Source of the DNA: Actinomycetospora sp. TBRC 11914
Lineage (GTDB): Bacteria; Actinomycetota; Actinomycetes; Mycobacteriales; Pseudonocardiaceae
NCBI RefSeq assembly: GCF_012933465.1
Contig: NZ_JABBND010000009.1
Span: 62,001 to 126,000, forward strand
DNA: 64,000 nt
Direction: 5' to 3'
Within the stretch, counting starts at the first letter, position 1. Each line of letters starts with the position of its first letter. The notes under the pieces are model-generated. The model was given only the letters and a program-made list of their open reading frames with translations, did no database searches and was not told where the DNA came from. A program made the position numbers and the translations under genes. This document shows, in pieces, positions 6,587-59,464 of this stretch.

Positions 6587-8182
6587 TCAGCCGAAGGGGA
6601 TCAACCGGGTGGTCCGGGCGCCGAGCGCCTGCCCGATCGGGGCCAGGACCTCCTCGCCGACGGGCTGGTCGACGCGCAGCAGGATGAGTGACGACGCCTT
6701 GTCGGTCGTCTGGGACATCTGGGCGGCCTCGATGTTGATGTCCGATTCCCCCAACAGGGTCCCGACGGTGCCCAGGGCACCCGGGCGGTCGGCGTACTCG
6801 ACGAGCAGGACGTGGCCCTCGGCGCGGATGTCGAAGGAGCGGCCGTTGACCTCGACGAGCTTCTCGACCTGGTCGCGGCCGGTCAGGGTCCCGGAGACGG
6901 TCACGGCCTCGCGGCCGTCGTGCAGCCCCCGCAGGGTCACCATGCTGCGGTGGTTCGGGCTCTCGGTGGCGGTCTCGACGTCGACGGTCACCCCCCGCTC
7001 CTGCGCGAGGGCGGGAGCGTTGACGAAGGTGACCGGCTCGTCGACGACCTCGCCGAAGACCCCGCGCAGCGCGGCCAGCCCCAGCACCGCGACGTCCTCG
7101 TGGGCGAGCTCGCCGCGGACCTGCACCGTGATGCCGGACGGCTGCCCGACCAGCGTCGAGAGCAGCGTCCCGAGCTTCTGAGTGAGGCCCAGCCAGGGCC
7201 GGACCTCCTCGCCGACCGTGCCGCCCTGGACGTTGACGGCGTCGGGCACGAAGTCGCCGCGCAGCGCGCGCAGCACGCTGTGGGCGACGTCGGTGCCCGC
7301 GCGGTCCTGGGCCTCGGCGGTCGACGCGCCGAGGTGGGGCGTGGCGGTGACCTGCTCGAGCTCGAAGAGCGGGCTGGAGGTGGTGGGCTCGGTGACGTAG
7401 ACGTCGACGCCCGCCCCGGCGACGTGCCCGGAGCGGATGGCCTCGGCCAGCGCCTCCTCGTCGACGAGGCCGCCGCGGGCGGCGTTGACGATGATCACGC
7501 CGGGCTTGGTCTTCGCGAGCGCCTCCTTGCCGATGAGCCCCTGCGTCTCCGGGGTCTTCGGTAGGTGGATCGTCATCATGTCGGCCCGGGCGAGCAGCTC
7601 GTCGAGCCCGACGAGCTCGATGCCCAGCTGGGTGGCGCGACTTGCCGGGAGGTAGGGGTCGTAGGCGATGACGTGGGCGTCGAACGCGGAGATGCGGGCG
7701 GCGAACAGCTGGCCGATCTTGCCGAGGCCGACGACGCCGACCGTCTTGCCCTGGATCTCCACGCCCGAGTACCTCGAGCGCGCCCACTCGCCGCGGCGCA
7801 GGCTCGCGTCGGCGGCCGGGATGTGGCGCGCGGTGGCGAGGAGCAGCGCGAGGGCGTGCTCGGCGGCCGAGACGATGTTCGAGGTGGGGGCGTTGACGAC
7901 CATGACGCCGGCCGCGGTGGCGGCGGGGACGTCGACGTTGTCCAGCCCGACGCCGGCGCGGCCCACCACGGTCAGCCTGGTCTGGGCCGCGAACACCTCG
8001 GCGTCGACCTGGGTGGCGCTGCGGACGAGGAGGGCGTCGGCGTCCCCGACGGCCGCAAGCAGCGCGTCCCGGTCGGTGCCGTCGACCTGCCGGACCTCGA
8101 CCTCGTCGCCGAACACCTCCAGCGTCGACGGCGCGAGCTTCTCGGCCATCAGGACGACGGGCCTGGCGTTCGGCGGGGTCAC
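6587..8182 (-). CDS. serA: D-3-phosphoglycerate dehydrogenase
   Basis: 531 residues with the long type-I architecture of actinobacterial SerA: substrate and NAD-binding domains, an intervening (ASB) domain and a C-terminal ACT domain that senses serine. Seen are VGLGKIGQLFAAR (nucleotide-binding), NAARGGLVDEEAL, TPHLGAST with the catalytic His, and the ACT segment beginning HVLLVEYADRPGALG. The GTG at 8182 (MTPPNARPVVLMAEK) was chosen because AGGAG lies about a dozen bases upstream and it matches family starts; an upstream ATG would add 32 poor residues. It catalyses the first step of serine synthesis. Confidence 0.95.
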   Translation of the reverse strand: MTPPNARPVVLMAEKLAPSTLEVFGDEVEVRQVDGTDRDALLAAVGDADALLVRSATQVDAEVFAAQTRLTVVGRAGVGLDNVDVPAATAAGVMVVNAPTSNIVSAAEHALALLLATARHIPAADASLRRGEWARSRYSGVEIQGKTVGVVGLGKIGQLFAARISAFDAHVIAYDPYLPASRATQLGIELVGLDELLARADMMTIHLPKTPETQGLIGKEALAKTKPGVIIVNAARGGLVDEEALAEAIRSGHVAGAGVDVYVTEPTTSSPLFELEQVTATPHLGASTAEAQDRAGTDVAHSVLRALRGDFVPDAVNVQGGTVGEEVRPWLGLTQKLGTLLSTLVGQPSGITVQVRGELAHEDVAVLGLAALRGVFGEVVDEPVTFVNAPALAQERGVTVDVETATESPNHRSMVTLRGLHDGREAVTVSGTLTGRDQVEKLVEVNGRSFDIRAEGHVLLVEYADRPGALGTVGTLLGESDINIEAAQMSQTTDKASSLILLRVDQPVGEEVLAPIGQALGARTTRLIPFG

Positions 8183-8353
8183 GGTGTGCGGCGCTCCTGG
8201 GTCGGCGGCTTCGGGCGCACGCCGAGGACCCGGGGCGAGCACGTCGGCGTGCCGGTGGGTCATCGTGCCCACGGTCACGCGACCTTATCGCCGCCTTTGT
8301 GATCCAGCTCTCATGGTCCCCCCGGGCCCGCCGCCCCGGCCCCGGCCCCGGCT

Positions 8354-8475
8354 GGAAGCAATGGCGCATCCCTCCCGTGTGGCGGGAGCACGGCGCCATC
8401 CGCTCAGGGACGCGCCCCCATCCCGCCTGGAGCAATGGCGCATTGCTCCCACCGGGTGACAGAACGGCGCCACTG
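8354..8475. repeat. Palindromic repeats B1 and B2 downstream of the AbiEi/DUF559-like gene
   Basis: The 381-base space between serA and the next gene holds two related imperfect palindromes and no gene. B1 (8354-8400) begins GGAAGCAATGGCGCAT and folds with GCGCCAT at 8393-8399. B2 (about 8429-8475) begins GGAGCAATGGCGCAT and ends in GGCGCCACT. The reverse complement of B1's outer arm, ATGCGCCATTGCTTCC, is identical to the outer arm of B3 and B4 on the other side of the adjacent gene, so the copies are inverted across it. They could form terminators or be mobile palindromes. Bases 8476-8563 are otherwise featureless. Confidence 0.8.
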
Positions 8476-8563
8476 GCTCGCAGCGCCGGTCCCGCGCCCG
8501 GAACCCGACCACCGACCCCGACACCCGACACCCGACCCCCGACGCCCGCCCGACCGACCTGCG

Positions 8564-9541
8564 TCACGCGCTCCGCGGCAGGTCGGGCTGCCACCGCACG
8601 AGCGGGGTCGGCAGGTTCGCGGCGACCCGGATCGCGTCGAGGACGTCCTGGTACAGACCGGCTGGGTCCCGCGCGATCCGACTCGGCCGAATCCCGTACA
8701 CGTGCAGCCCAGCCGACCGGTAGGCGCGGTGCTGCCGCTCGGTCTCCACGACCTGGTCCGCCGTCGAGAAGTGGTGCTCCGTCGAGTCGATCGGGAGGAC
8801 GAGCCCGATCTCCGGCACGTAGGCGTCCGCGATCCCGAGCAGACCGGTGGCATCGCTGAGGCGCACGTTGAACACCACGCTCTGCGGCAGGTCGGGGTGC
8901 TCCGACCACCACGCGTGGAAGTCGAACTCCGCTGCCGAGCGGGCGCCGTCCTCAGCGGCCCGCAGCACCGCTCGTGGGGTGGCGCTCCCCCGCTGGGACC
9001 CGGCGTCGAGCTCTTCGAGGAGCGTCCCGACGAGGAGCATTCTCCGCTGCACGGGCTCGGTGAGGATCGCCGCGATGTCGGAGCGGTCCCGCATCCGGCG
9101 CGCCGCGTCGAGGACACATCGCTCGACGGGCGCCACCGGCAGCTCGTCCCGGACGATGGCCGGACGGAGGCGAGTGGTGCGCTCGACCCGGATCGTCGGC
9201 GTCGACTGGACCCGCATCCCCGCGGGGACGAGCAGGTGGACCGCCGCCGGCAGCTCGCCGCGCCGGAGCAGGTGGGCGCGGGCGGCGTCGAGCCCGGTGA
9301 GGAGCGCCCGGTCGCCGGCGTAGACGAGTCCCGCCCGCACGAGCTGGCGTCTGGTCGGCGTGCCGGTACTCAGCCGGACGGTCGCGGGAGCCATCAACGT
9401 CCACGGGCCGTCGTCCTGACACCAGCGGTAGATGGTGCTCTCCGGCATGCCCAGGCCCATCAGGGTCCGGACGTGGATGGTGTCGTCGACGGCCGCCTCG
9501 CGGATGCGTCCCATCTCCGCGGCCCACCTGCCTCGCCTCAT
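8564..9541 (-). CDS. AbiEi-like / DUF559-like protein (nuclease-fold related)
   Basis: 325 residues. The N-terminal part (VDDTIHVRTLMGLGMPESTI then WTLMAPATVRLS) resembles the winged-helix domain of AbiEi-type proteins. The C-terminal part, AEFDFHAWWSEHPDL, IADAYVPEIGLVLPIDST and a terminal helix, resembles the VSR-like PD-(D/E)XK fold of DUF559 proteins. At the usual Glu-x-Asp core the sequence is PID, so one expected acidic residue is missing and the nuclease may be inactive. ATG at 9541 is preferred; reading further upstream runs into repeats B3/B4. Repeats bracket the gene on both sides. Such genes are common accessory genes in Actinobacteria; their function is not established. Confidence 0.75.
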   Translation of the reverse strand: MRRGRWAAEMGRIREAAVDDTIHVRTLMGLGMPESTIYRWCQDDGPWTLMAPATVRLSTGTPTRRQLVRAGLVYAGDRALLTGLDAARAHLLRRGELPAAVHLLVPAGMRVQSTPTIRVERTTRLRPAIVRDELPVAPVERCVLDAARRMRDRSDIAAILTEPVQRRMLLVGTLLEELDAGSQRGSATPRAVLRAAEDGARSAAEFDFHAWWSEHPDLPQSVVFNVRLSDATGLLGIADAYVPEIGLVLPIDSTEHHFSTADQVVETERQHRAYRSAGLHVYGIRPSRIARDPAGLYQDVLDAIRVAANLPTPLVRWQPDLPRSA

Positions 9542-9690
9542 GTCCGAAGCGTGCTGGGGTCCGGCGCGGCGCCGTGAGCGTCGAGCGAACGGGTTGGGGA
9601 CAACCCGGGCCCCACTGCCGGTGGGGACGAACGACGACGGCGGACGTACCAACGCGGTACGTCCGCCGTCGTCGTCACCGCTCCGCGGGT

Positions 9691-9815
9691 GAGCGGCGCC
9701 GTCCTGGCACCCGATGCCAGGAATGCGCCATTGCTTCCGGACGGGGCGGCCGCACACCTGCGAGCGAACGGCGCCGTTCTGGCACCGGACGCCAGGAATG
9801 CGCCATTGCTTCCGG
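9691..9815. repeat. Palindromic repeats B3 and B4 upstream of the AbiEi/DUF559-like gene
   Basis: Two near-identical units about 75 bases apart. In B3, GGCGCCGTCCTGGCA (9696-9710) pairs at 13 of 15 positions with TGCCAGGAATGCGCC (9716-9730). In B4, GGCGCCGTTCTGGC (9771-9784) pairs with GCCAGGAATGCGCC (9792-9805). Both continue into ATTGCTTCCGGAC. They are inverted copies of B1/B2. They lie between the ilvC stop at 9839 and the start of the AbiEi/DUF559-like gene at 9541. Bases 9542-9690 contain no recognised signal apart from a short self-complementary ACGACGGCGGACGTACC stretch near 9633-9672. Confidence 0.82.
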
Positions 9816-9838: not shown

Positions 9839-10882
<1,044 letters not shown>

Positions 10883-58362: not shown

Positions 58363-58383
58363 GTGGAGCCGGGCGCCGCCGGA

Positions 58384-58427
58384 GTCAGCGGCACCGCGCA
58401 CGCCCGGGTGCGCGCCGTGCCACTGAC
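58384..58427. repeat. Palindromic repeat C1, upstream of the DUF559-type gene
   Basis: GTCAGCGGCAC (58384-58394) pairs at 10 of 11 positions with GTGCCACTGAC (58417-58427), and the inner CGCGCAC/GTGCGCG pair perfectly. It lies 22 bases past the glgX stop and 56 bases before the DUF559-type gene, so it may end the glgX transcript. It shares GCGCCGTGCCACTGAC with C2 on the far side of that gene. Confidence 0.85.
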
Positions 58428-58483
58428 ATCGTGGCCGGTGCAGGACGTGGGAGCCGCCGCGGCCCGCGGGGCGTCGAACCCCC

Positions 58484-59405
58484 GTGAGCACCCTCCCCGC
58501 CGGCGCCGCACGGCTCCGGGCGCAGATGCTGGACCAGGACGGCGTGGCGACCGTCCGGCAGGCGAAGGACGCGGGCTAACTCCCGCGCCGCGATCGCCGG
58601 GAAGGTCCGGCGCGGCGAGTGGGAACGCCCGGCCCACGGCGTCCTGCGCACGACCGAGCACCCGGTGACGCCACGGTCGCGCATCCGCGTCGCCATGCTC
58701 TCGATCGGACCGGACGCGACGCTCGTCGGGCGGTCGGCCGCGTACTGGTGGCAGATGACGGACACCGCACCCGTCGACGTGGAGATCGCGGTGCCGCAGC
58801 GGAACCAGCCACGTCCGCGCCCGGGCGTAACGGTGACGCGGCGGGCCGTCCCCGACCGGGACCGCGTCGCCGTCGACGGGCTCCTCGTCACCAAGAAGGC
58901 CGCCACCGTGCTCGCCACCGTCGCCGCCCTCGGCGTGGTCGCCGGGGCGAAGCTGATGGACCGGGTCCTGCAGCGCGGGATGGTCGCGCTCGACGCCCTG
59001 CGGGAGGTGCACGAGCGGACGCGGCACCGCTACGGCGCGGTGGTCGGCGGCGTCCTGCTGGCCCTGGCGGCGGGCGGGGCGCGCTCCGAGGCCGAACGGC
59101 TGGCGCACCGGGCCCTGCGCGGGGCGGGCATCACCGGGTGGCTCGCCGACCACCGCGTGGTGCTCCCCCGCCACGGACCGGCCCTGCTCGACCTCGCGTT
59201 CCTCGAGCAGCGGGTCCTCGTGGAGATCGACGGCTGGGCCTACCACCGCGATCTCCGGGCCTTCCTGCACGACTCCGCCCGCCAGAACGCCCTCGTGCTC
59301 GCCGGGTGGGTGGTGATCCGCACGAACTGGCACGAGCTGACGGAGCGCCCCGAACGGTTCGTCGGCACCGTGCGGGATGCGCTGGCCGAGCGCGCCCGCT
59401 CCTGA
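58484..59405 (+). pseudogene. DUF559-domain (VSR-like nuclease) gene with a frameshift
   Basis: The frame starts at GTG 58484 (MSTLPAGAARLRAQMLDQDG, then VATVRQAKDAG) and hits TAA at 58577. Homologous coding resumes in the +1 frame as ANSRAAIAGKVRRGEWERP and continues to 59405. A single extra G in the GGG run at 58573-58575 explains the break. The C-terminal DUF559 domain is intact: LLDLAFLEQRVLVEIDGWAY then HRDLRAFLHDSARQNALVLA, with the usual Asp, Glu-x-Asp and His residues. The N-terminal part resembles the AbiEi-like helix-turn-helix. Without the shift it would be about 306 residues. It may be a recent pseudogene or a sequencing error. Confidence 0.78.
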
Positions 59406-59406
59406 T

Positions 59407-59450
59407 GTCAGTGGCAGCCCGCACGGGCGGTGCAGCGCCGTGCCACTGAC
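59407..59450. repeat. Palindromic repeat C2, downstream of the DUF559-type gene
   Basis: GTCAGTGGCA (59407-59416) and TGCCACTGAC (59441-59450) form a perfect 10-bp stem. It starts two bases after the DUF559-type gene stop and lies 15 bases from the glgP stop, so it may be a bidirectional terminator. It is the partner of C1 across the gene and shares GCGCCGTGCCACTGAC in the same orientation. Confidence 0.85.
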
Positions 59451-59464
59451 TCCGCGGACCGGCC

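Follow-up and report, generated by a model that had tools for sequence, protein, structure and literature searches.

Why should the gene for a nuclease-like protein be enclosed by mirrored copies of a palindromic repeat? The question is raised by a locus of an Actinomycetospora genome (Pseudonocardiaceae, a family of soil bacteria): there, with ilvC and serA as its neighbours, a 325-aa open reading frame is flanked by four repeats of about 53 nt. The locus lies in a stretch of 64,000 nucleotides, referred to below as the window, which is contained in a 6.5-Mb assembly of 63 contigs. As far as we are aware, the RAYTs are the one class of enzyme with which scattered REP-type palindromes of bacteria have been connected. 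We consider it probable that the locus consists of an AbiEi-Vsr gene with inverted copies of its own palindrome, in a REP/RAYT-like arrangement in which a nuclease replaces the transposase, and that further copies are scattered in some species. The features of the locus are as follows, in window coordinates.

6587-8278: serA, a neighbour named from its translation
8354-8406, plus strand: repeat B1, 53 nt, with the GCAATGG box facing outward and the CGCC..CGCTC tail facing the gene
8428-8480, plus strand: repeat B2, 74 nt after B1, its outer arm short of one base
8564-9541 including the stop codon, minus strand: gene for the 325-aa protein P0001, AbiEi-like DNA-binding plus Vsr/EDxHD-like nuclease
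9631-9675, no strand assigned: hairpin with 20 perfect base pairs, 90-134 nt upstream of the gene's start codon and thus between the gene and B3
9686-9738, minus strand: repeat B3, mirrored
9761-9813, minus strand: repeat B4, mirrored, 75 nt from B3
9839-10855: ilvC, a neighbour named from its translation

The four repeats claimed in an earlier note on this DNA, mirrored and with one arm base missing from B2, were all located, and B1/B2 and B3/B4 lie on opposite sides of the reading frame, placing the gene inside mirrored palindromes as that note had described. Their scores against a covariance model of the repeat ranged from 54.6 to 75.5 bits.

The predicted structure of P0001 (pLDDT 92, with low confidence at residues 255-257) is made of two halves, a DNA-binding one of AbiEi type and a nuclease of Vsr/EDxHD type. 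Structure comparison of this model assigned an AbiEi-like fold to the N-terminal half and a Vsr-like nuclease fold to the C-terminal half, in line with the nuclease fold and DNA-binding-type N terminus that had been suggested from the sequence; matches to mitoribosomal proteins and ANT(2'') were set aside. Residues E205, D239, and H257, which we take to be catalytic, are conserved across the family, and among 60 proteins from outside the genus E205, N225, D239, and S253 were kept in all 60 and H257 in 59. PADLOC AbiEi models matched P0001. No Pfam model did, with DUF559 (PF04480) undetected up to E 1, and none of 32 family members matched DUF559 up to E 0.01. An adjacent AbiEii nucleotidyltransferase toxin was absent, the neighbours being ilvC and serA. 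A search for the Y1 transposase (PF01797) gave no match in the genome of the window (97% complete) and was positive in 5 of 14 known genomes used as a control; a Y1 transposase was therefore rejected as the driver of the repeats in this genome.

We examined the repeat, here called repeat B, across its own genome (G000). A pattern search allowing up to three mismatches gave 75 matches, compared with 54 for the reversed pattern. Twenty-nine units aligned without gaps to a consensus that begins GGCAGC and ends TTCGCnCA, and neither end carries a GTAG or CGTC tag in these 29 copies. The covariance model returned 82 rows at E<=1e-3, with 150 candidates scored, so that weak copies may be missed. The earlier note had asked whether the palindromes occur elsewhere without a gene, and they do: about 81 units form 45 clusters (15 single, 25 double, 4 triple, and 1 quadruple), mostly doublets. 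Within the scattered clusters the spacing is 74-76 nt in 31 of 36 cases, and the gene ends show the identical doublet spacing. A fold of repeat B into a single long hairpin had 84.6% of cells paired, but neither pairing nor covariation exceeded that of shuffles; this reading was therefore set aside, and two separate palindromic boxes fit better. The distribution could be taken for coincidence, meaning that a repeat family with no tie to the gene occupies whichever intergenic sites tolerate it, the flanks of P0001 among them. Such a reading would accommodate the 77 of about 81 units that lie away from the gene, as well as the finding that repeat B was present at only 1 of 12 AbiEi/DUF559 loci tested in this genome with the covariance model, namely the P0001 locus itself.

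Whether coincidence suffices depends on how often related genes are bracketed. We locally aligned the 500 bp to the left of each gene with the reverse complement of the 500 bp to its right, and counted loci scoring at least 22 as bracketed. In the genus, 28 of 34 homologous loci were bracketed; these 34 (6 + 28, with L006 a marginal homolog and one other a gene fragment) belong mostly to five shared chromosomal sites. The loci below 22 were L003, L056, L059, L060, L077, and L082. Among overlapping control blocks of the window, 2 of 206 exceeded the cut-off, both at the P0001 locus. For loci of the genus matching Pfam DUF559, 20 of the 34 tested (drawn from 78 matches) reached 22. The corresponding controls, 994 blocks taken from four genomes, gave 7 such scores, 4 of which belong to the P0001 locus. 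Palindromes flanking several of the Pfam-DUF559 genes (for example L122, L123, L125, and L147, among L121-L148) carry GATC near their outer ends, unlike those of the P0001 family. A control block of genome G013, which scored 33.0, contains scattered hairpins around a LysR/SDR gene pair, like the flanks of the site-2 gene L074:

G013:C6:263266-265033: L106, LysR/SDR pair (gene names from translations) bracketed by two scattered hairpins

A second bracketed gene with its own palindromes had also been proposed for the window, at about 58.7-59.4 kb. Mirrored palindromes are present there (58380-58430 and 59404-59454), but the bracketing is weaker, with a score of 20 that 0.9% of the 994 control blocks reach. 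The AbiEi/DUF559-type gene within this segment (58380-59454) shows no clear start codon for its full N terminus and is possibly decaying.

We looked beyond the genus with a profile of the P0001 family, which matched 163 of the 200 Pseudonocardiaceae genomes and 38 of 46 genera; the genus itself accounts for 10 of the matching genomes. Of the 61 best-scoring places outside the genus, we tested 60, one in G045 being left out. The cut-off of 22 was reached by 42 of the 60 loci, with 35 at 30 or higher; of 660 overlapping control blocks from 20 stretches, 2 reached it. One control block, L266 (score 38), is a pair of coding stretches, antiparallel and rich in gaps, and holds no palindromes of this kind; it was kept in the count. 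Fisher's test gave P ~6e-31 for the genus, with the blocks of the locus itself removed, and ~4e-51 outside it, values that related loci and overlapping blocks make overstate independence. The enrichment of palindromes beside DUF559/AbiEi-type genes that the earlier note had proposed to test is borne out in all three sets (28/34, 42/60, and 20/34 versus 2/206, 2/660, and 7/994), and the opposite outcome that it had named, no enrichment across related genomes, was not what we found. Clear brackets were lacking at 6 of the 34 genus loci and 18 of the 60 outside loci. A core motif, AAxGyNy'Cx'TT, which was picked after the outside-genus flanks had been seen, occurred 63 times in 60 kb of those flanks (0.3 expected) and 9 times in 200 kb of controls (1.2 expected). 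The flanks of 33 genus loci held three (0.1 expected), and the exact core is missing from the repeat B consensus.

The repeats also proved to be specific to individual genes. Left and right arms of the same gene had a median similarity score of 48 (29 genus loci), whereas paralogs within one genome had a median of 8.75 (18 pairs), comparable to unrelated background pairs (8.5; 315 pairs; P 0.53). Arms at the same site in other species were intermediate (19.5; 73 pairs), and in a cross-search Actinomycetospora arms also matched sister species. Judged by sequence similarity, the repeat tracks the gene rather than the genome, since both arms match while same-genome paralogs resemble background. 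Coincidence is difficult to reconcile with unrelated repeats beside paralogs of one genome and matching repeats on the two sides of one gene, and with bracketing of 28/34 genus loci and 42/60 outside loci, far above the control blocks (2/206 and 2/660); given these rates and this gene specificity, we regard it as very unlikely.

Scattered copies of a gene's own repeat were found in other genomes as well. In G004, 26 seed matches lie away from the gene; of 19 examined, 18 carry the gene-flank seed, most of them its tail too, and L179 does not. In all six genomes of a second genus, the gene-flank hairpin AACGGACCGTT...AACGGTCCGTT was counted 14, 12, 57, 88, 108, and 61 times; the reversed pattern gave 0, and elsewhere the hairpin was found 0 times in four genomes of other genera, once in G192, and 6 times in G126. 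Three arms of the second genus for which 400 kb were searched had 45-103 own matches, and five arms had no match outside that genus among the stretches cross-searched. Of 11 arms from other genera, L216, L254, L221, and L232 alone were matched within 10-20 kb of their own genome, and three had no match in any stretch cross-searched. Twenty 10-kb stretches about 30 kb from the genes included three (G115, G062, and a one-core stretch of G094) with cores like the gene flanks. The arm seed of G009 had 103 matches, which we count as partial support for scattering because sister families share this seed. At site 1 of G013, the model scored 43-52 bits for four gene copies and 33.6-36.2 bits for three others, and by this comparison the repeat looks confined to the gene. 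The 84 seed matches of G013 were rejected as copies of its site-1 gene repeat, and G013 was left out of the support because the scattered copies nearby are a different variant. In G002 and G005 an abundant seed, GTCAGCGGTGGCACA, had 51 and 73 matches (up to one mismatch), partly in 30-nt steps, and has so far been linked to no flanked gene. The likeness to RAYT/REP systems proposed in the earlier note is borne out insofar as some species carry scattered copies of the gene's own repeat, and the genome of the window yielded no Y1 transposase match.

The placement of the copies bears on a regulatory alternative, in which the repeats are operators: the AbiEi-like half would act as a repressor at its own gene and at a scattered regulon, and the nuclease half would have another job or none. 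AbiEi antitoxins are reported (PMC7319586) to bind inverted repeats of the promoter from which they are themselves expressed, and the AbiEi fold of the N-terminal half and the PADLOC matches agree with such a role. Neither the 98 second-genus hairpins nor the seven G000 units examined fall inside called genes (home-made gene caller; coding fraction 0.77-0.90). Of these 98 hairpins, which include tandem copies and are not independent, 37 lie in convergent gaps and 13 in divergent ones; of the intergenic sequence counted, these two types of gap hold about 15% and about 39% of the bases, respectively. This bias, the mirrored repeats downstream of the gene, and the conserved nuclease residues all speak against operators. 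With repeats on both sides and few in divergent gaps, the regulatory reading is weakened, and we hold it to be distinctly unlikely.

In three second-genus genomes the copies concentrate around the gene. Copies near the gene, its own flanks included, numbered 24 in G149, 32 in G115, and 35 in G133 (200, 200, and 240 kb around), compared with 0, 0, and 2 far from it (200, 200, and 160 kb); exact copies in the whole genomes totalled 108, 57, and 88. The G133 region was picked after its copy list had been seen, the G149 and G115 regions before. The copies near the gene form dense arrays:

L326-L337 (G133:C1:690001-930000), L286-L295 (G149), and L306-L315 (G115): closely packed copies of the gene's palindrome in intergenic DNA, reaching no farther than about 80-140 kb from the gene

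The distance between shared flanks in these arrays differs by species, and the number of units probably differs likewise. In G094, 1 of 12 copies lies within 100 kb of the gene, so that clustering near the gene was rejected as a general rule. Clustering may be a regional effect, because the G149, G115, and G133 regions are syntenic and G094 is without it.

Comparison of relatives revealed differences in both repeats and genes. The repeat that G005 carries at 2894652 is missing at the matching place in G009, where the two genomes differ by a clean 64 nt. Conversely, G005 and G000 both lack a repeat that G009 has at 111600. No usable junction came out of comparing G062 with G094. Sixteen genomes have a close ilvC match, and in 10 of these a serA motif follows within 248-289 nt of ilvC and the gene is missing, which may reflect absence or loss. 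The gene tree places the site-2 gene of G006 together with the site-1 genes (100/97). A hairpin of the 9631-9675 type occurs within 330 nt upstream at 6 of 6 site-1 loci, 5 of 7 site-2 loci, and 0 of 17 others. It lies at -129 to -151 in L001, L002, L057, L058, and L072-L074; at the other four site-1 loci the first hairpin match is at a greater distance upstream, where it may represent the end of ilvC. The same type of hairpin also ends ilvC in G006, which is gene-free there, and among 409 kb of four genomes it was found at site 1 alone. It may be a terminator carried along as the unit moved. Taken as sequence evidence, the tree and the shared hairpin are best read as movement of the gene between site 1 and site 2.

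This movement would also suit an IS-like transposon, with the repeats as its ends, the scattered copies as MITEs, and the nuclease acting as transposase or as partner of a transposase of the host or another element. The inverted ends, and their doublets resembling the scattered doublets, are as such an element would have them. Yet no target-site duplication was evident at the one clean 64-nt difference, the other compared sites being blurred, and most genes of the genus occupy a few shared sites and are divergent rather than near-identical. Moreover, we know of no member of the P0001 family that is a transposase. We consider a transposon unlikely.

The reading that we prefer, a nuclease gene accompanied by its own palindrome, suggests the following mechanism. 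The AbiEi-type half would recognise and bind the palindromic boxes of its own repeat, which suggest binding as a dimer, and the Vsr-like half would nick or cut at the repeat. Repair or strand transfer could then copy the repeat, as a single unit or a doublet, into other intergenic sites, while the bracketing repeats would keep enzyme and substrate linked and could let the whole unit move. More broadly, we lean toward the view that AbiEi-Vsr nucleases are an unrecognised repeat-propagating class, in which every gene propagates a palindrome of its own and evolves together with it, that most Pseudonocardiaceae carry gene-specific REP-like populations without need of Y1, and that in some species the spread favours the vicinity of the gene. 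If this is true, a second, unrelated enzyme class would imply that gene-repeat partnerships arose independently. It would also provide a candidate role for many AbiEi/DUF559-type proteins of these actinobacteria, and many enzyme-target pairs whose likely target can be read from the gene flanks.

Among known systems, REPtrons are the closest in arrangement. Passages of PMC3733652 describe them as a RAYT gene flanked by palindromes as monomers or dimers, and the P0001 unit resembles what these and parts of PMC8266576 report in both arrangement and scattering. The P0001 gene is flanked by a palindrome scattered in the same genome, as are the genes of G004 and the second genus, but not that at site 1 of G013, and the scattered copies are extragenic (0/98 and 0/7 in called genes). 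It differs in that the REPtron enzyme is an HuH Y1 protein (RAYT / TnpA-REP), whereas P0001 combines AbiEi and Vsr-like halves; in that the repeat B consensus ends without the GTAG/CGTC tag; and in that repeat B spans about 53 nt with two palindromic boxes, compared with 20-40 bp for REPs. Because enzyme class and end tag differ, the P0001 unit is not a RAYT/REPtron member. The same passages of PMC3733652 mention a CGTC class of REPs apparently without a dedicated transposase, and TIRtrons, in which a RAYT-like gene lies between long TIRs. The P0001 unit shares with TIRtrons a single gene between terminal inverted repeats, which in some cases make up moderately abundant families. TIRtrons, however, have a Y1 enzyme, whereas the P0001-type repeats are palindromic, often doubled, and present in up to 108 exact-pattern copies.

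Other comparisons concern the protein itself. P0001 shares the AbiEi antitoxin fold with AbiE type IV toxin-antitoxin systems, but has an extra nuclease half and ilvC and serA as neighbours in place of AbiEii. Its predicted fold and conserved acidic and His residues resemble Vsr and the EDxHD homing endonuclease I-Bth0305I, from which, as from DUF559, it differs in being bracketed by its own repeats; it also lies below Pfam DUF559 detection. A Vsr-like protein is described in Caulobacter, in passages of PMC12907096 that mention no such repeats. Among the literature matches listed (titles and abstract starts, with preprints outside the scope), there was no report of such a nuclease-palindrome unit. 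Its enzyme class and repeat type fit no family tested, while its arrangement has an analogue in the REPtrons.
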